Shown: positions 6,470 through 19,334 of the stretch, in pieces | How the letters are laid out: each line of letters begins with the position of its first letter | Position numbering within the stretch: the stretch's first letter is position 1 | Virus record (IMG/VR): IMGVR_UViG_3300047451_000020 | Location: 1-26,426 of that record | Reading direction: 5' to 3' (one strand) | DNA length: 26,426 nucleotides | Source: a virus | The notes under the pieces: generated by a model | Database searches by the model: none | The model's input: only the letters and a program-made list of their open reading frames with translations | What the model was told of the DNA's origin: nothing | Position numbers and translations under genes: made by a program

Positions 6470-6477
6470 GATAAATA
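6470..6477 (+). promoter_or_regulatory. T4-late-like promoter octamer
   Basis: GATAAATA differs from the T4 late consensus TATAAATA at the first base only. By T4 geometry the transcript would begin about 6 nt after the last A, at or next to the ATG at 6483. This suggests a nearly leaderless mRNA; no good Shine-Dalgarno sequence is visible. Confidence 0.5.
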
Positions 6478-6482
6478 ATAGT

Positions 6483-7613
6483 ATGAACAACAGTGATATT
6501 CCAAATAACGACCTATTAGTAATCAAAAATGGCTTGAATCAGCTTAACCAAGTAATTGAAACTATAGCCAATAGAGAGAGCGTTGCACCATCTGTAGAAG
6601 GTATGGCTAACGATTCTATTTCCGGAGACTTAGTACATGGTGGCACTATTTCAGCATTTAAAAGTGTTGGCATATACGACCAAGCATCAAAAGTAAGTGT
6701 AATAGTCAAAGACGACAGACTTGTTGTAGACTATGTTGATGCTGTAGAGTTAAAGGGTGATATTAAAGTTGAAAAAGATTTAAACGTTGGTGGTACTATT
6801 ACTGCACAACGTATTGACGCAGTAGAAATTAATGCGGAAGTAAGGCATGAAAGAACAAGTCCTTTAGAGTTTAAGTGTAGCGAAAGCGATACTATGTACG
6901 GAAAAGGATTGATGTGGACAGGTAATGGACATACTAGACAACTAGTAATGCAAGCCAATCCAGATCGTTTATGGACTAGTGAATCATTAGATTTGCATAC
7001 AGATCAACATTATATGATCGCAAATACTAGTGTACTAAGTTCAGATACATTAGGCCCAGGTGTTATGCACTCTAGTTTAACTAGTGTGGGTACACTAAGA
7101 AATTTAAGAACTGAAGGCAATATGAACATAGATCAGTTCATCTTCTACGATGGAGATGGAATGAGATTAGGGGTTGGCATCGATGCTCCAAACGGACAAC
7201 TAAGTGTTGCGAGTAATGAAGCAGAATACATCATTGATCCTGGATACGATAGTATCAAAGCAGGAACATATACGACACACGATTTAGAATTAATCACAGA
7301 TGATATTACAAGGATCAAACTTAAATCAACTAATAAGATTGAAGTTGGTTCAGATACTGAAACAGTTACAACTTTTAAAGGGAAAGTTGGAATTGGTATT
7401 AACAACCCAGACACCGCGTTAAGTGTTGCGTCTCCGATCAAAGTTCAAGGTAAGAAAATAGAATTTGGAGAACAAGTACCAGACAATGGTATATATAACA
7501 GAGGTGATTTGATATTCAACACACAACCTAGTCCAACAGGATATGTAGGGTGGGTGTGTATTAGAGAAGGCACCCCAGGAGAGTGGAAACCCTTTGGTGC
7601 TATTGGAGCATAA
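6483..7613 (+). CDS. Fibre-like virion structural protein
   Basis: The product has 376 residues, is beta-rich and has no membrane segments. It shows fibre-type features: a short N-terminal helical segment (LVIKNGLNQLNQVIETIA), a long series of short strands and glycine/asparagine turns (VEKDLNVGGTITAQRIDAVE, VGIGINNPDTALSVAS), and a C-terminus ending in GYVGWVCIREGTPGEWKPFG, a tip motif common in tail-fibre and appendage proteins of T4-like marine phages. The 'VGIG...P...L.V' element resembles the repeats that precede chaperone tips in other fibres. A late-type promoter octamer stands directly before the start codon, as expected for a structural gene. Which appendage it belongs to (long fibre, short fibre or baseplate decoration) cannot be told. 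Confidence 0.75.
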   Translation: MNNSDIPNNDLLVIKNGLNQLNQVIETIANRESVAPSVEGMANDSISGDLVHGGTISAFKSVGIYDQASKVSVIVKDDRLVVDYVDAVELKGDIKVEKDLNVGGTITAQRIDAVEINAEVRHERTSPLEFKCSESDTMYGKGLMWTGNGHTRQLVMQANPDRLWTSESLDLHTDQHYMIANTSVLSSDTLGPGVMHSSLTSVGTLRNLRTEGNMNIDQFIFYDGDGMRLGVGIDAPNGQLSVASNEAEYIIDPGYDSIKAGTYTTHDLELITDDITRIKLKSTNKIEVGSDTETVTTFKGKVGIGINNPDTALSVASPIKVQGKKIEFGEQVPDNGIYNRGDLIFNTQPSPTGYVGWVCIREGTPGEWKPFGAIGA

Positions 7614-7618
7614 AAGCG

Positions 7619-7972
7619 GTGGACATTAAAAGTAAAAAATTCGATAGAGAAGTAACACTATGGGCGTGGTTAGGACGTATTGCTCCAATGACTGCACTAT
7701 TAGTATTAGCCATAGTATCAACTACAGAATATAACGATTATACAGATATATTAGTTACAGGTATTGCTGTTTCTTTTGGAACTATTGCGTTCTTTTGGTG
7801 GTGGTGGGTACTAAGATCTGTAGGCATACTTACTAACCTATTAGATACTACTTCTGAAAGGTTTACAGAAGTTGTTAAAGAATTAAAAGAGATTAGGAAA
7901 GATGTAAAAGATCTTCCGATCAAAAAAATTCCTAAGCGTAAGTACGAACGTAAGCCTAAAAGTCAAAGTTAA
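7619..7972 (+). CDS. Two-helix membrane protein with coiled coil (holin-like candidate)
   Basis: I choose the GTG at 7619 (117 residues) because it follows the upstream stop and has GGAG nearby. The in-frame ATG at 7583 lies inside the structural gene and adds a poorly hydrophobic tail. The protein has two hydrophobic segments (MTALLVLAIVST, about 24-35, and TGIAVSFGTIAFFWWWWVL, about 47-66). A predicted coiled coil follows (LTNLLDTTSERFTEVVKELK), then a strongly basic C-terminus (KIPKRKYERKPK). Two transmembrane helices plus a charged tail, next to structural genes, fits a class II holin or another small inner-membrane protein. No lysis partner is adjacent; the nearest muralytic gene is at 16765. 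Its 3' end overlaps the convergent minus-strand gene by 17 nt. Confidence 0.65.
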   Translation: MDIKSKKFDREVTLWAWLGRIAPMTALLVLAIVSTTEYNDYTDILVTGIAVSFGTIAFFWWWWVLRSVGILTNLLDTTSERFTEVVKELKEIRKDVKDLPIKKIPKRKYERKPKSQS

Positions 7973-8297
7973 AACCAAATACTAAACCTTTTGTGTCGCC
8001 TTCAAGTGCAGGCATAACAAACATATTGTTATAGTTTAATCTTACCATTGGTGCAACATCATACTTCCATAAGTAACCTGATACAAGTCCTACATCAATA
8101 GATAGTTCTTCTTCTGTATACTTGTTGACTAATGGAAAGTTAACTGCTCCAAATGCACTCAGCGTATCTAGACTGTTATAATAAAGTCCTGTAACTGTTC
8201 TTTCTGTTTCACATTTTACGTATGGATGAATTTGATTATAATCTTGTTCTAATCCAAAGTGTAAAGACAAGGCAAGTCCTACTGCTAGGCAACTCAT
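7956..8297 (-). CDS. Probable outer-membrane beta-barrel protein
   Basis: The 113 residues contain a hydrophobic N-terminus (MSCLAVGLALSLHFG) resembling the core of a signal peptide. Alternating polar and aromatic strands follow (TGLYYNS, DVGLVSGYLWKYDVAPMVRL, NYNNMFVMPALE), ending GLVFGFNFDF with the terminal Phe usual for Bam-inserted barrels. The ATG at 8297 has no convincing ribosome-binding site. A 10-codon frame with a good AGGA site starts at 8326 (MKNTIRTARP) and ends in an ATGA overlap with this ATG; joined by a -1 shift it would supply exactly the missing basic N-region of a signal peptide. The function is unknown; receptor masking or superinfection exclusion is speculation. It is the last gene of the minus-strand fibre block and is convergent with the membrane protein gene. 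Confidence 0.65.
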   Translation of the reverse strand: MSCLAVGLALSLHFGLEQDYNQIHPYVKCETERTVTGLYYNSLDTLSAFGAVNFPLVNKYTEEELSIDVGLVSGYLWKYDVAPMVRLNYNNMFVMPALEGDTKGLVFGFNFDF

Positions 8298-10053: not shown

Positions 10054-12228
10054 TTATCTCTTACCTTTTAAAAATTCTATTTCGTGCTTTAATTCTTTGA
10101 TTGCTTCTACCAGCAGTCCTACAACTTTATCGTATTGTACACCTAAGTATCCGTCTTTGTTACTACGAACAATTTCTGGTAACACTTGTTCTACGTCTTG
10201 TGCAATTAGTCCTGTGTCGTTTTTCTTAACAAAGTAACCATCTTCGCCACCGTGTTGTTTCATGTATGCTTCAGTCCAATCAAATGTTACACCATTGAGT
10301 TGATTAACTTTGTCTAGTGCATTTGGAATGTTAGAAATGTTTTCTTTAAGTCGTCTGTCTGATGAATAGTATGCTGTGATGTTGTTAGTAGCTCTAATCT
10401 CTCCAGTAGTTCCTGAAGCGGCTGTGCCAACACCTAATGAATCGTGTTGTACATCATCATCTGTGTCAAGTGTTAATAATTTACGTTGTGAACTTGCACC
10501 TGTTACTGTAGATGCCGCTAACAATGTTCTTGCTTGAGCAGGTAAAGCAAATACAGAAGCAGTACCTGATCCTGTAAAATATATTCCTTTGTCTGCCGCA
10601 GAAGTTAATCCTGCTATTGCGGCTAAGTCTGCATCATATGCTTGTACGTTTACTCCAATGTCTGCGTCAACTACCATAGTTGCATCGTAAGCCATTACGT
10701 CTGAGCCAATAGCAAGTCCTAATGCTGTTCTAGCGTCACTTGCAGATGTGCTACCTGTTCCACCTGAAGCAACTGGAACTGTTCCTAAACTAATATCACC
10801 TGCCGCGGATACTGAGATTGGACTTGTACCACTAACTGCTACTGTGCCTGTTGCGGCTGGCAATGTAATAGTTACATCGGCAGTACTTGCAGGACCTATT
10901 AGTGTTGCTTTATTAGTACCGTTGTTTGTTCCTTCTAAAAACTCAATCTTACCACCTGTTGTAGCAGTAGGAGATAGAATAGGATCAGTTAACGTTTTGT
11001 TTGTTAGTGTTTGTGTTGCCGCAATACCAACAAGTGTTTCATCACTAACCGCAGTATTAAATTCCGCAAAGGTTCCTGTTACAGTATTATCAGTTAGATC
11101 AATACTTTTATTTGTAAGTGTATCAGTTGTATCTCTACCTACTACAGTTTCATCACTAACTGCGGTATTAAGTTCTGCTATTGTACCTGTTACTGTATTA
11201 TCAGTTAAACTGATTGACTTGTTTGTAAGTGTGTCTGTTGTATCTCTAGCTACTACACTTTCGTCACTAACGGCTGTATTCAATTGTGCTATAGTTGTCG
11301 TTAGTGTATTGTTTGCTAAGTTAACACTTTTATTAGTCAACGTATCTGTTGTGGCTTTGCCTACGAATGTGTCGTTGCTATCGGGCAATGCCCAACTGTT
11401 ACTTGCACTAGGTTTAATAGCGGCTATGATTGGTGATGTTAAAGTTTTGTTTGTTAAAGTTTGTGAACCTACAAGTGTTGTTACAGTACTGTCTATTGCC
11501 CATTCAATAGTGTCTGTTCCAGGTGTTGTTGTAATATCAATACCTGTTCCACCTGTTAGGTTTAAAATATCTTGGATGTTGTCAGCAACAACAGGACTTG
11601 CTCCTGATACTTGAATAGTTTTAAATGCGTTCTTTGCTCCACCGTAATCAGCAGTAGCAACTCCGCCACTTGTATATGCACTAAATCCTGTGCCGTCTAT
11701 TGATGTTGTTAATTGTGCATCTGAATACAAAGCAAATGTAGTACTAGTTAGTACGTCCATAAAGTATTCATTACCGTTAACATTGGTCATTCCAACTACA
11801 TCAACTAGTGTTACTTCTGTACCATCTGTAAATGCGTGAGCGTTAGTTGTTGTAACTACAACAGGATTAGCCGCTGTAATATTACTAATTGATTTACTAA
11901 CACCTCCTACTAGTGCCGCAATAGTCATCTGATTTGCGTTATCTCTAGTAATGATCATGTTACCACCAGCAACTAAATTAATATCGCTTGAAACGTTATT
12001 AACATCAGTTAATCTAATTGCAGTAGTTGACAACGGAACACTTAAATTATATTCAACATCAAACTTAAATGTATCTGTTGCTAAGTCTACACTATTCCAT
12101 GCTACACCATTTCCACGTATAAAGTTAATACTATCAGTTACATTATCCGCCTCAATAGTCTGCTCAAGAGTCGTTCCATCAGGTGAATAAAGTTTAACAT
12201 ATCTAAAAAAATCGTAATAAGCAGTCAT
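10054..12228 (-). CDS. Tail-fibre protein with C-terminal Peptidase_S74 chaperone domain
   Basis: The product has 724 residues. The N-terminus (about 1-100) gives an attachment region, [20 protein letters not shown] onward. The shaft holds three exact-length 37-residue repeats of [12 protein letters not shown]..(T/G)T.A..NTAVSDE.(V/L) and further [10 protein letters not shown](I) elements, typical of trimeric fibres. The last 100 or so residues are a Peptidase_S74 intramolecular chaperone: SDRRLKENI with the Ser/Lys pair that cuts the chain, [24 protein letters not shown], and [19 protein letters not shown], a terminal coiled coil. After trimerisation the domain is expected to release itself. 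A late-type promoter lies on the minus strand at 12256-12263 with AAGGAA before the start. It is divergent from the gene at 12274. Confidence 0.9.
11020..11352 (-). repeat. Three tandem 111-bp repeats in the S74 fibre shaft
   Basis: Units run on the minus strand from 11352, 11241 and 11130, each 111 bp (37 codons), beginning with codons for TTDTLTNKS and ending before the next copy. They differ by scattered substitutions and have no length changes, so the periodicity is kept by the protein fold. Confidence 0.85.
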
Positions 12229-12255: not shown

Positions 12256-12268
12256 TATTTATTAAATA
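12256..12268. promoter_or_regulatory. Overlapping divergent late-like promoters
   Basis: The 46-bp space between the S74 fibre gene and the gene at 12274 contains TATTTATT (12256-12263), which reads AATAAATA on the minus strand toward the fibre gene, and ATTAAATA (12261-12268) on the plus strand. The minus-strand element leaves a 22-nt leader with AAGGAA. The plus-strand element is a weaker match and ends only 6 nt before the ATG. Confidence 0.45.
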
Positions 12269-12273
12269 ATGTT

Positions 12274-12828
12274 ATGCTTGTAATTGGCAACGGTGAAACT
12301 AGATATAACATTGATTTAGGTCTGTTTAGAGATACTAAAGTAGGATGTAATGCCCTGTATAGAGATTATACAGTAGATCATTTAGTCTGTTGCGACAAGC
12401 GAATGGTTAAAGAAGTACTAGAAGCAAACACATTTAAGGGTACTTTATATACCCGTAAAGACTGGTTTGAAGATTTCAAAGGAGTTGAGTGTTTACCTGA
12501 CTTACCTTACAAAGGTACAGCAAGACCAGATGATCCTTGGCATTGGGGCAGTGGTCCTTTTGCTGTACTAATTGGAGCAAGATTAGCATATGAATGGAAA
12601 GAACCTGTTAACCTAGTAGGGTTTGATTTGTACAATGGAAATATTTACAAGGATACTAAAAACTACGCCAAATCAGATGCAAGACCAGTAGATCCTAGTT
12701 ATTGGATACACCAAATGAACAAAGTATTTGAACACTTTCCTAGTGTTACGTTCAATTATTATTCTACAAAAAAATGGCCAGATAAGTATAGTAACATAAA
12801 GAATTTTAATTTAGAGGAACTTAAATGA
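12274..12828 (+). CDS. Rossmann-like hypothetical protein
   Basis: The 184 residues start at the ATG at 12274; an in-frame TTG at 12253 lies within the promoter octamers and is less likely. The N-terminus MLVIGNGETRYNIDLGLF then TKVGCNALYRDYTVDHLVCC has the glycine loop, the buried strand and the 'GCNA.YRD' element seen in Rossmann-type motility-accessory/DUF115-like and sialyltransferase-like proteins. Downstream blocks are LYTRKDW, DDPWHWGSGPFAVLIGARLA, NLVGFDLYNGNIYKDT and DPSYWIHQM. I remember similar proteins in marine T4-like phages but know no proven activity. A nucleotide-sugar role is possible given the neighbouring glycosyltransferase but remains a guess. It overlaps the next oxygenase gene by 4 nt. 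Confidence 0.7.
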   Translation: MLVIGNGETRYNIDLGLFRDTKVGCNALYRDYTVDHLVCCDKRMVKEVLEANTFKGTLYTRKDWFEDFKGVECLPDLPYKGTARPDDPWHWGSGPFAVLIGARLAYEWKEPVNLVGFDLYNGNIYKDTKNYAKSDARPVDPSYWIHQMNKVFEHFPSVTFNYYSTKKWPDKYSNIKNFNLEELK

Positions 12829-16778: not shown

Positions 16779-17418
16779 TAACTTTATAAAATATACAAAA
16801 ATAGGTGCAGTAGCAGTCCTAGGACTAGGTCTTAGCTATGGCGTTGGTACCTTTACACCCAACACTTGGACTATAAATGATATAGTTGCAAAAGCAGAAG
16901 AAAAGATTATAGGAGAATGGAACGAGTTTGGGTTTCATGAACCTTCAATAGAATATACAAACAATGCTCAATTCGTAGTCGGTGTATCACGTTGTATTGA
17001 CTTCCTTAACTTACATACAGAAATAGGTAAACGTGTTCCACGAGATATTATTGTTGCGATGGCTATATTAGAAACAGGATATGGCAAAAGTAGATTTGCA
17101 CTTGAAGGCAATAACTTATTTGGTATACGTACATGGGATAAAAATACACCACAATTGAAACCTTTAGAGTTGCCCAATGCGGCGTTTGGTGTTAAAATGT
17201 ATAAAACAAAGTGTGCTTCTGTAAAAGATATGATTCACACTATTAATACGCATCGTGCGTATGTAGACTATAGAGATGAACGTGACAGACAAGAAGCAAC
17301 AGGAGTTTTAGATATTAATGCACAAGTAGATCAATTACACAAGTGGAGTACAAATCCAAACTACACAGCATTAGTAAAAGAAAAGATTTTAATATTACAA
17401 GGCAAACAACATGACTAA
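16765..17418 (+). CDS. Bax-like glucosaminidase (peptidoglycan hydrolase), membrane anchored
   Basis: The 217 residues have an N-terminal basic stretch plus a hydrophobic segment (about 13-32, IGAVAVLGLGLSYGVGTF), which serves as an uncleaved anchor or signal peptide. The catalytic domain matches the mannosyl-glycoprotein endo-beta-N-acetylglucosaminidase family: RVPRDIIVAMAILETGYGKS with the likely catalytic Glu103, EGNNLFGIRTW, then AAFGVKMYKTKCASVKDMIH and a C-terminal KWSTNPNYTALVKEKIL. Bax is the E. coli relative. The domain cuts glycan strands of peptidoglycan. Its position between phosphomannomutase and UvdE, with 14-nt and 8-nt overlaps, does not show whether it serves lysis, DNA entry or envelope remodelling. 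Confidence 0.85.
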   Translation: MKKNSNFIKYTKIGAVAVLGLGLSYGVGTFTPNTWTINDIVAKAEEKIIGEWNEFGFHEPSIEYTNNAQFVVGVSRCIDFLNLHTEIGKRVPRDIIVAMAILETGYGKSRFALEGNNLFGIRTWDKNTPQLKPLELPNAAFGVKMYKTKCASVKDMIHTINTHRAYVDYRDERDRQEATGVLDINAQVDQLHKWSTNPNYTALVKEKILILQGKQHD

Positions 17419-18430
17419 ACGTATAGGCTTCGCATGTAAGTACATGCACTCAGATCAAACGCAGAAGAAGAAACTGCTAGAAGAAATTCAACGACCACTA
17501 AATACACGTAGTACGACAGTACAATGGCTTAACAGGCAAACACGTGAAGTAGCAGAAGAACGCTTGTGGGACATTATGGTACACAACATTCAATCGTACT
17601 CTAACTTGATCGAATACGTAGGAGGATTACCTAATGAACTTAGAATGGTTAGACTCGGTAGCGATTGCCTTCCGGTATACACGCAACAAGATTGGTCATA
17701 TTTTTGGCGAAAGCCTGACGTCCGTGATTACTGTAGTAAACATCTCGCTCCCGTCGGCGACAAGGCAAGAGCCCTCAATGTCCGACTATCGATGCACCCA
17801 GGCCAATTTACTGTACTTGCGAGCGACAACCCCGAAATTGTAGATAGGAGCATAGAAGAATTTGAATATCACACCGACATCATACGCTGGATGGGATACG
17901 GCAAGACCTTCCAAGACTTTAAATGCAATGTCCATATATCAGGTAGACAAGGTCCAACCGGTATCATCAATGTCCTGCCAAGACTATCTCAAGAGGCGAG
18001 AAACTGTATTACGATCGAGAACGACGAGAACTCGTGGGGGCTCGACGCATCGCTCGAACTTGAAAAACATGTCGCATTGGTTCTTGACATACACCACCAC
18101 TGGGTGCGTACAGGTGAATACATACAGCCCACCGACGATAGATTTTCTCGCGTAGTAGATAGCTGGCGTGGTGTACGACCTGCAATGCATTACAGCTACA
18201 GTCGTAACGAACATTTACCACAAGACTTTGCACATGACACTATGCCTAATATGGAACAACTGCTAGAAGCAGGCCATAAGAAACAGAAACTTAGAGCCCA
18301 TAGTGACTACTATCCTAACAAACTTGTTAATGATTGGGCATTGAGCTTCTTAGAACATGCTGACATTATGTGCGAAAGCAAGTGCAAAAACCTAGCCAGC
18401 ATTGAGCTATACGAACAATATAAAGCGTAA
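17411..18430 (+). CDS. uvdE: UV damage endonuclease UvdE
   Basis: The 339-residue TIM-barrel enzyme nicks DNA 5' to UV photoproducts and some abasic sites, starting alternative excision repair. Family blocks are IGFACKYMHSD at the start, MVRLGSDCLPVY, VRLSMHPGQFTVLASDNPEI with metal-binding His, EFEYHTDIIRWMG, NVHISGRQG, ITIENDENSWG with metal-binding Glu, LVLDIHHHWV, and PAMHYSYSR, followed by RAHSDYYPNKLVNDW. The length fits bacterial UvdE. DNA repair by this route suits a phage in sunlit water. Base use changes inside the gene: from about 17640 to 18180 codons are richer in C and G (hand count 53% GC at 18001-18060, 52% at 17761-17820, against 37% at 18301-18360). Confidence 0.93.
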   Translation: MTKRIGFACKYMHSDQTQKKKLLEEIQRPLNTRSTTVQWLNRQTREVAEERLWDIMVHNIQSYSNLIEYVGGLPNELRMVRLGSDCLPVYTQQDWSYFWRKPDVRDYCSKHLAPVGDKARALNVRLSMHPGQFTVLASDNPEIVDRSIEEFEYHTDIIRWMGYGKTFQDFKCNVHISGRQGPTGIINVLPRLSQEARNCITIENDENSWGLDASLELEKHVALVLDIHHHWVRTGEYIQPTDDRFSRVVDSWRGVRPAMHYSYSRNEHLPQDFAHDTMPNMEQLLEAGHKKQKLRAHSDYYPNKLVNDWALSFLEHADIMCESKCKNLASIELYEQYKA

Positions 18431-18646: not shown

Positions 18647-18684
18647 CAATGATTGACATCACAATTTGCTGATGTCGGTCATTG
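18647..18684 (+). terminator. 15-bp stem-loop between convergent genes
   Basis: CAATGATTGACATCA (18647-18661) pairs with TGATGTCGGTCATTG (18670-18684) with an 8-nt loop. Two of the pairs are G-U only in the plus-strand RNA and become mismatches in the minus RNA, so the hairpin is made for the plus transcript. It covers the stop codon of the minus-strand gene. No run of T follows, so it may protect the 3' end rather than be a classic terminator. Confidence 0.6.
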
Positions 18685-18943
18685 TATCTACCCTAACATT
18701 GAGTTTTTTGCGTTGTAATACGCCAGCTTTTTGAGCAAAACGTTTAGGATCGCATTTTTCACATACATGTGAGTAGTCATTTGTTAGGCGCTTAGGGTCT
18801 ACTTGTCCTTTGTCGCGTGAGAATTCTTCATGGCAGTTATCACATTCAAAGAATACAATCGTTTTTTTACGCTTGTATGGATGATGTCCACGCTTACCTT
18901 TACGCATATAGTATTGAATTTTCTTTTCAGTTCGTAAAAACAT
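18659..18943 (-). CDS. Zinc-ribbon-like small protein
   Basis: The 94 residues start at the ATG at 18943, 8 nt after a perfect T4-late octamer; the frame extends further upstream but those codons lie across the divergent promoter region. The protein is basic at the N-terminus (MRKGKRGHHPYKRKK) and carries two CxxC pairs, FFECDNCHEEF and HVCEKCDPK, about 20 residues apart, giving a probable zinc ribbon. The C-terminal part is basic (GVLQRKKLNVRV). This suggests a nucleic-acid binding protein or a phage transcription or HNH-related factor, without catalytic HNH residues visible. No Shine-Dalgarno sequence precedes the ATG. Confidence 0.75.
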   Translation of the reverse strand: MFLRTEKKIQYYMRKGKRGHHPYKRKKTIVFFECDNCHEEFSRDKGQVDPKRLTNDYSHVCEKCDPKRFAQKAGVLQRKKLNVRVDTMTDISKL

Positions 18944-18951
18944 AGTAATAG

Positions 18952-18959
18952 TATTTATA
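18952..18959 (-). promoter_or_regulatory. Perfect T4-late promoter octamer
   Basis: On the minus strand it reads TATAAATA, the exact T4 late consensus, followed by CTATTACT and the ATG. By T4 geometry the transcript would start about 3 nt before the start codon. Confidence 0.7.
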
Positions 18960-18984
18960 ATCACATTCGGATTATAGATTAACA

Positions 18985-18992
18985 GATAAATA
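18985..18992 (+). promoter_or_regulatory. T4-late-like promoter octamer for the iscA/fibre genes
   Basis: GATAAATA, the same variant as at 6470, is divergent from the octamer at 18952. The expected start near 18998 leaves a short leader that still contains AGGA for the ATG at 19011. Confidence 0.55.
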
Positions 18993-19010
18993 ATAATGAT
19001 AGGAACAACA

Positions 19011-19334
19011 ATGTCAATAGTTACTTTAACAGACTCAGCCAAAGAACAGATGTGTAATATGGTTGAAGAACATAAAAAGCCAGCAGTTAGGCTTTCATTA
19101 AAGGGTGGCGGTTGTGCTGGTTTTAAATATGAATGGACTATGGAAGACAACGTGAACACAGAAGACGAAGTAGTTGATTTCGATAAAGGTAAATTTGTAG
19201 TAGATCCATCTAGTGTGATGTATTTGCTAGGTAGTACAATAGACTACAAGAAAGAAATGTTTGGATCTTACTTTGCAGTAGAGAATCCAGGAAGTACATC
19301 AAGTTGCGGGTGCGGCGAATCAATAGGATTTTAG
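19011..19334 (+). CDS. A-type Fe-S cluster carrier, IscA-like
   Basis: The 107-residue protein shows the IscA/ErpA/HesB pattern with three conserved cysteines: Cys35 in KGGGCAGFKYEW and Cys99/Cys101 in SSCGCGES, an exact C-X63-C-G-C spacing. Length and cysteine positions agree with bacterial IscA. Such proteins carry iron or [4Fe-4S] clusters to apo-enzymes. Choice of start: ATG at 19011 has AGGA 7 nt upstream, and the ATG at 18996 lies in the expected -1/+1 region of the late-like promoter. It is followed after 10 nt by the giant structural gene, so it would be transcribed late with it. An assembly or enzyme-activation role in infected cells is inference. Confidence 0.93.
   Translation: MSIVTLTDSAKEQMCNMVEEHKKPAVRLSLKGGGCAGFKYEWTMEDNVNTEDEVVDFDKGKFVVDPSSVMYLLGSTIDYKKEMFGSYFAVENPGSTSSCGCGESIGF

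Follow-up and report, generated by a model that had tools for sequence, protein, structure and literature searches.

Genome sequences point, with a probability that we put at about 0.85, to a class of T4-type late promoters that start their mRNA at or near the AUG codon, giving leaderless late genes beside genes whose mRNAs carry a Shine-Dalgarno (SD) sequence. The sequence evidence that transcription begins on these start codons, or right beside them, is strong: the spacing between promoter and ATG is fixed at 5 nt, a pyrimidine-A signature marks the start, SD sequences are few, the start codons are exclusively ATG, orthologues keep the arrangement and control phages are clean.

In the proposed mechanism, the octamers would be T4-type late promoters read, late in infection, by a gp55-like late sigma factor on the host RNA polymerase. 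Hereafter, the gap is the number of nucleotides between the end of the octamer (or of its TAAATA core) and the ATG; genes with gaps of 4-6 are called short-gap and those with gaps of 15-29 leadered. At gap 5 (sometimes 4), transcription would begin on the A of AUG, and at gap 7-8 about 1-3 nt ahead of it. Since an mRNA of this kind would have neither leader nor SD sequence, initiation would have to occur on the 5'-terminal AUG, which would presumably be used by 70S ribosomes to yield the protein. Other late genes, including that of the major capsid protein, would be expressed from SD-bearing mRNAs of the same genomes.

Putative promoters and start codons in the window

The window, i.e. the whole stretch of DNA that was analysed, is a 26,426-base IMG/VR virus fragment with 37% G+C. 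It is a piece of an uncultured T4-like marine phage genome, and its gene content (DNA ligase, tail fibres, 2OG-Fe(II) oxygenases, UvdE, Fe-S carrier) is typical of large T4-like phages. The features concerned are the following.

6470-6477, plus strand: putative T4-type late promoter octamer GATAAATA, leaderless class; gap 5 common to family 236
6478-6482, plus strand: 5-nt spacer ATAGT ending in T (-1); transcription is predicted to start at the A of ATG (T4 octamer numbering, PMC2988020)
6483-7613, plus strand: predicted leaderless late gene of 376 aa; its product resembles virion/tail-fibre proteins (head and tail matches in PHROG)
10054-12228, minus strand: putative leadered late gene, long tail fibre/baseplate-like protein
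12256-12263, minus strand: putative late octamer AATAAATA facing the other way, leadered; the tail-fibre start follows after 27 nt that include an SD-like AAGG
12261-12268, plus strand: putative late promoter octamer ATTAAATA, leaderless class, overlapping the opposite octamer; gap 5 in relatives
12269-12273, plus strand: 5-nt spacer ATGTT, pyrimidine at -1
12274-12828, plus strand: predicted leaderless late gene, 184 aa, function unassigned (phrog_30607)
18659-18943, minus strand: predicted near-leaderless late gene, 94 aa, function unassigned; no match in PHROG and Pfam searches
18944-18946, minus strand: predicted 3-nt leader ACU; ACT-ATG arrangement also in the G001 orthologue
18952-18959, minus strand: putative late promoter octamer TATAAATA, 8 nt before ATG
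18985-18992, plus strand: putative late octamer GATAAATA, leadered, 18 nt with SD-like AGGA to the ATG at 19011
19011-19334, plus strand: putative leadered gene, A-type Fe-S carrier-like protein (PF01521; start chosen by SD)

The earlier note had placed three late-like octamers just before start codons, and the positions are correct: GATAAATA at 6470-6477 precedes the ATG at 6483, ATTAAATA at 12261-12268 that at 12274 and TATAAATA at 18959-18952 (minus strand) that at 18943. The spacings that it gave (6, 6 and 8) mixed two conventions, the intervening bases being 5, 5 and 8. According to PMC2988020, the T4 late promoter octamer begins at -13. With this numbering, a 5-nt gap would therefore put +1 on the A of ATG and a gap of 8 would leave a 3-nt leader, in agreement with the earlier prediction of a start on the ATG or about 3 nt from it at most. 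Leaderless expression is thus supported, as a prediction, for the two gap-5 genes; the third gene is instead predicted to have a 3-nt leader. As also claimed earlier, none of the three genes has an SD-like word and most other genes have one (18 of the 25 others listed, by a hand count in which AAGG was accepted and the better of two candidate starts was used for three genes).

The octamers at 12261-12268 and 12256-12263 form a single 13-bp two-way promoter, TATTTATTAAATA (12256-12268), that is leadered with an SD-like word toward the tail fibre gene and predicted leaderless toward the 12274 gene. Near the third gene, the mechanically assigned start of the Fe-S carrier-like gene, at 18996, probably lies too far upstream, since the ATG at 19011 is preceded by an SD-like word and, 18 nt away, by a late octamer. 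On the minus strand, at about 18961-18977, TATAATCCGAATGT lies upstream of the octamer of the third gene and is kept in the G001, G002 and G003 orthologues; it is possibly an additional early promoter. TATAAT occurs upstream of the third gene and of these orthologues, and a second promoter giving a real leader is possible there.

Enrichment of the octamer per se was rejected: 52 matches with one mismatch occur in the window, fewer than the 70.4 expected from shuffles. The non-random feature is the spacing to the ATG and not the abundance of the octamer. Indeed, gap 5 is found in 2 of 24 called ATG genes versus 0.09 expected (P 0.004), and the excess is also seen without gene calls (P 0.018).

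Besides these features, the window carries (652-2095 and 7956-8297) a DAHP_synth_1 (KdsA-like) gene with an adjoining cytidylyltransferase (KdsB-like) gene, and also a PagP-like match. These genes are possibly a set that alters the host lipopolysaccharide. Relatives of KdsA in genomes have at most 56% identity among the 80 matches listed; among these, titles are mostly alphaproteobacterial and a Pelagibacteraceae genome ranks second, which is no more than suggestive as to the host.

A fixed spacing in uncultured relatives

The genome-wide comparison of octamer-to-ATG spacing with SD presence, proposed in the earlier note as a check, strongly favours leaderless late mRNAs. The set consisted of the window and relatives G001-G005 and G007, of which G001 (267,783 bases) was read whole; pooled counts exclude G006, which is almost the same phage as G001. 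The census scored hexamer-by-position enrichment upstream of called ATG genes with no motif named beforehand, and the TAAATA core arose from it unprompted. In G001, TAAATA at gap 5 is the most position-enriched hexamer, above SD words (12 vs 1.11 expected; P 2.8e-10 with gene calls and 2.7e-12 without). The remaining TAAATA copies within 54 nt of a start in this genome have gaps of 0-9 (5 copies), 10-14 (none), 15-29 (33) or 30-54 (11), and copies at the leadered distance of 15-29 nt are mostly accompanied by SD sequences. Called genes also peak at gap 5 in G002 (4 vs 0.45), G003 (5 vs 0.40), G004 (4 vs 0.31), G005 (14 vs 1.40) and G006 (7 vs 0.71), and weakly in G007 (3 genes, P 0.026).

The gene caller missed two genes of the window (18659-18943 on the minus strand and 17411-18430). 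In a caller-independent test, each TAAATA followed by an ATG and at least 60 open codons was counted and compared with a mean. It gave 17 vs 1.64 at gap 5 in G001, 19 vs 1.72 in G005 (plus 9 at gap 4), 6 vs 0.49 in G004, 5 vs 0.46 in G003 and 4 vs 0.54 in G002; the count in G007 was not significant (3 vs 1.26, P 0.13). The spacing thus differs from random expectation with and without gene calls. Class members were chosen on TAAATA, so that its presence in them is by construction, and the full TATAAATA octamer is found in only some of them. The variant TAAGTA also peaks at gap 5 (7 vs 0.89 expected in G001-G005, G007 and the window); therefore, the class is larger than the exact hexamer reveals.

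Signature of the predicted start site and shortage of SD words

A pyrimidine occupies position -1 in all 53 non-redundant short-gap genes. With one representative per protein family, the proportion is 30/30, versus 0.418 of 828 motif-less genes (p 4e-12). Bacterial polymerases prefer to start on a purine (+1) that follows a pyrimidine (-1). Taken with this preference, the invariant pyrimidine points to the A of ATG as the probable +1. Among leadered genes, a mild peak of the pyrimidine-purine step lies at the same distance from the octamer (52/111, the next position having 45). As judged by eye, most of the seven genes with gaps of 7-9 have an A where transcription would be expected to start, 1-3 nt ahead of the ATG.

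Furthermore, strong SD words precede only 4 of 54 short-gap genes, versus 77 of 109 genes with gaps of 15-29 (Fisher p 2e-15) and 409 of 828 genes without TAAATA (p 1e-10). In the four exceptions, the word lies upstream of the octamer or overlaps it. A laxer three-base definition gives 20/54, 105/109 and 595/828, respectively. Moreover, all 44 gap-5 starts are ATG, GTG or TTG being used by 57 of the 1,123 genes of the whole set.

Conservation among orthologues

Each of the six members of the 6483 gene family in the set has TAAATA at gap 5, down to 40% identity. For the 12274 gene, which has 31 relatives in IMG/VR, TAAATA lies exactly 5 nt before the ATG in 27 of 30 loci (hand count that includes many near-copies and leaves out L030); one other locus has TAAGTA at the same place and two (L029 and L032) have neither. 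The DNA farther upstream of these loci is unrelated between groups, yet gap 5 is kept. Orthologues of the third gene have gap 5 in G002 and G003 and gap 8 in G001, and that of G004 has no TAAATA within 60 nt upstream. More generally, the gap is not constant in some orthologues (4 to 9), and others are devoid of a nearby TAAATA.

The terminase gene was compared in 51 distinct upstream contexts, from 80 loci, among the matches listed. TAAATA is at gap 5 in 32 of these listed contexts and TAAGTA at gap 5 in eight; seven have gap 4, three gap 7 or 8, and one has neither motif. All 50 motif-bearing contexts have T or C before the ATG.

Some genes with short gaps in these phages have a leader in the jumbo phages phi30-2 and fENko-Kae01 (Kae01). 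For instance, s213162 has gap 5 in G001, G003, G004 and G005, versus 22 in phi30-2 and 32 in Kae01, both with GAGG. The s49550 gene has gaps of 8, 5 and 5 in G001, G007 and G005, versus 19 with AGGAG and 29 with GGAG in phi30-2 and Kae01, and a gp25-like gene has gaps of 5, 4 and 4 versus 23 with AGGA in phi30-2. By hand count, none of the ten orthologues of five short-gap genes in these two phages has a gap below 19; seven combine an octamer 19-46 nt upstream with an SD-like word, and TAAATA is absent from the 60 nt before the other three. The leader may have been lost in the marine lineage or gained in phi30-2 and Kae01.

It could be argued that longer read-through mRNAs are translated and that the TAAATA close to the ATG acts as an A/U-rich enhancer of ribosome binding and not as a promoter. 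A/U-rich unstructured starts aid initiation without SD, and a co-directional gene lies upstream of 40 of the 54 short-gap genes. However, an enhancer would need no exact spacing, the pyrimidine at -1 is invariant and several orthologues, as above, pair the same hexamer with a leader. In addition, a strand switch precedes 14 of 54 short-gap genes and 22 of 110 leadered ones, versus 24 of 824 TAAATA-less genes; short-gap and leadered genes thus stand first in transcription units at similar frequencies, and a 39-bp divergent region of G005 has a putative promoter each way, with gaps 4 and 5. Lastly, 41 of the 51 terminase contexts among the matches listed have a terminator-like hairpin just before the octamer and no more than 30 nt from the ATG, which hardly leaves room for a leader. 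Over all genes, such hairpins precede 6 of 61 genes with gaps of 4-9, 1 of 109 leadered and 5 of 828 motif-less genes (Fisher p 3e-5). We thus consider the enhancer explanation improbable and retain that of promoters abutting the start codon.

Control phages and cultured marine phages

No gap-5 excess was found in seven controls (T6, three cyanophages, two jumbo phages and phiM12): counts were 4 vs 2.49 in phi30-2, 2 vs 2.0 in Kae01, 3 vs 1.74 in T6, 1 vs 1.0 in ACG-2014f, 0 vs 1.26 in the cyanophage S-8S56, 0 vs 0.62 in phiM12 and 2 vs 1.56 in P-TIM68. The only gap-5 gene of ACG-2014f has AGGAG directly before the octamer and resembles the tail-tube-associated gene of HTVC008M. For three other phages, only bare-pattern counts were obtained (control in brackets): Phosso 3 (2), Vibrio 2.275.O 3 (3) and Atu_ph07 15 (9).

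HTVC008M, a cultured Pelagibacter (SAR11) phage of the Kyanoviridae, has 12 gap-5 sites vs 0.87. Nine called genes have gap 5, each beginning at its deposited codon; their annotations include DNA end protector, tail completion, base plate wedge, tail-tube-associated baseplate, tape measure and CsgF. Gap 5 is also found, at the deposited starts, for the head-completion gene (18943) and a cyclase gene (11972) of this phage. The T4 gene numbers gp2, gp3, gp4 and gp25 that we use for HTVC008M are labels assigned in this analysis; for gp4, the gene caller chose a start other than that of the deposited record. At 18917-18942, a 26-bp divergent region between the end-protector and head-completion genes has a gap-5 octamer both ways. 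As a counter-example to the start-site signature, one of the nine called genes has A at -1. Mosig also shows an excess (6 vs 1.08, P 9e-4) and Melnitz a non-significant count (3 vs 1.13), and the end-protector gene has gap 5 in all three phages.

These results bear on the explanation by chance in A+T-rich DNA or by misannotated start codons. It would fit the lack of octamer enrichment in the window, but it is contradicted by the caller-independent excess and by the agreement of the deposited starts of HTVC008M. Moreover, A+T-rich controls show no excess; therefore, composition is not the cause. In the three window genes, the next in-frame ATGs (40, 43 and 12 codons downstream) have no well-placed SD, nor has a TTG at codon 17 of the first. 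We regard this explanation as extremely unlikely.

Transcription and translation machinery

A protein of the gp55 family (phrog_12791) is encoded by G001, G005, G006 and G007; none was found in G002-G004, all of which are fragments. The G001 protein matches T4 gp55 in PDB 7d7c (E 7e-5), and family members are also present in phi30-2, Kae01 and ACG-2014f. This homologue is consistent with gp55-dependent transcription of the class. It also weighs against the motif being a Deinococcus-like -10 box of host sigma-70, in which case the genes would be leaderless but early or constitutive. Leaderless -10 boxes adjoining ORFs do exist in bacteria, as PMC12340547 and PMC3160421 describe, but the hexamer is TAAATA and not TANNNT, it is common to leadered genes too, and class members include genes of terminase, baseplate and head-completion type. 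A host -10 box is thus hardly probable, and we favour late promoters of T4 type.

The profile of the T4 sliding clamp (phrog_223) matched ACG-2014f only, of ten records, with no match in the seven uncultured records, phi30-2 or Kae01, for which clamp-activated late transcription is therefore not shown. The annotation of HTVC008M lists a late sigma factor, a late promoter transcription factor, a clamp and S21. Homologues of ribosomal protein S21 (L250-L253) occur in G002, G004, G005 and the Pseudomonas phage phi30-2, and were not found in G001, G003, G006, G007, Kae01 and ACG-2014f. IF3_C was found only in fENko-Kae01, of six records searched. This jumbo Klebsiella phage protein (L254, 239956-240216) has an IF3 C-terminal domain in a 169-aa open frame. 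Given their patchy presence, neither S21 nor IF3_C tracks the distribution of the class, and phage-encoded translation factors were rejected as its cause.

Possible role and significance

Tentatively, one may imagine a two-track late programme, an idea that we hold to be possible but rather doubtful. Few-copy parts (terminase, end protector, head and tail completion proteins, baseplate wedge) would be expressed from leaderless mRNAs and abundant parts (capsid, sheath, tube) from SD-bearing ones, the mode of ribosome entry setting virion stoichiometry or timing. The arrangement would have separate origins in the jumbo lineage and in pelagimyophages, whose hosts' ribosomes would accept leaderless mRNAs. 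The capsid, sheath and tube genes of HTVC008M and the capsid genes of G001, G005 and G007 have SD-like words and no gap-5 octamer. In HTVC008M, leaders with SD-like words precede the few-copy portal and protease genes, and the terminase gene is devoid of both octamer and SD; therefore, the link with copy number is an idea drawn from few genes.

If the leaderless reading is true, a T4-type late promoter can be fused to a translation start, dispensing with leader and SD. Start-abutting promoters might explain why late-promoter prediction was unsuccessful in a pelagimyophage study (PMC7029224), though 15 late promoters, found with TATAAAT, are reported for Melnitz in PMC9004378. In the latter, the main text does not mention leaderless genes, the word appearing only in the reference list. 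HTVC008M and Mosig would provide a cultured, testable case of leaderless virion-gene expression in ocean phages, and the gap-5 spacing gives a rule for correcting gene starts.

Comparison with known systems

The middle and late transcripts of the Thermus phage phiYS40 were reportedly found to be leaderless by Sevostyanova and colleagues in 2007. The resemblance lies in leaderless phage late mRNAs and in a promoter with a single -10-like element; phiYS40 differs in using host sigma-A in a thermophile, whereas here the element is of T4 late type in marine T4-like phages. Precedent for leaderless phage late mRNAs thus exists in Thermus phages. Leaderless genes behind T4-type late promoters were not found described in the literature searched, which was mostly short of full texts and included few subscription journals. 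The AR9 paper states that phage transcripts are often leaderless, yet gives leaders of 26 nt or more for AR9 itself; a P23-45 paper does not mention leaderless transcripts.

Among cellular genes, the Deinococcus-Thermus -10 box adjoining ORFs (PMC12340547) and TA-led leaderless genes of bacteria (PMC3160421) follow a similar logic, a promoter element some 12 bp ahead of the start codon making the gene leaderless, but they are cellular and of the sigma-70 class TANNNT. In Caulobacter, 375 leaderless mRNAs are described (PMC4117421); 70S ribosomes initiate on them, and they are translated with about the efficiency of leadered mRNAs. These are host genes, and they show only that an alphaproteobacterium can translate leaderless mRNAs. 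There is also a likeness with the T4 late promoters (gp55/gp33/gp45), with which the present phages share the octamer core, a gp55 homologue and other late-type genes having a leader and SD. T6 and the six further controls show no gap-5 excess, whereas here one class of putative late promoters adjoins the AUG.
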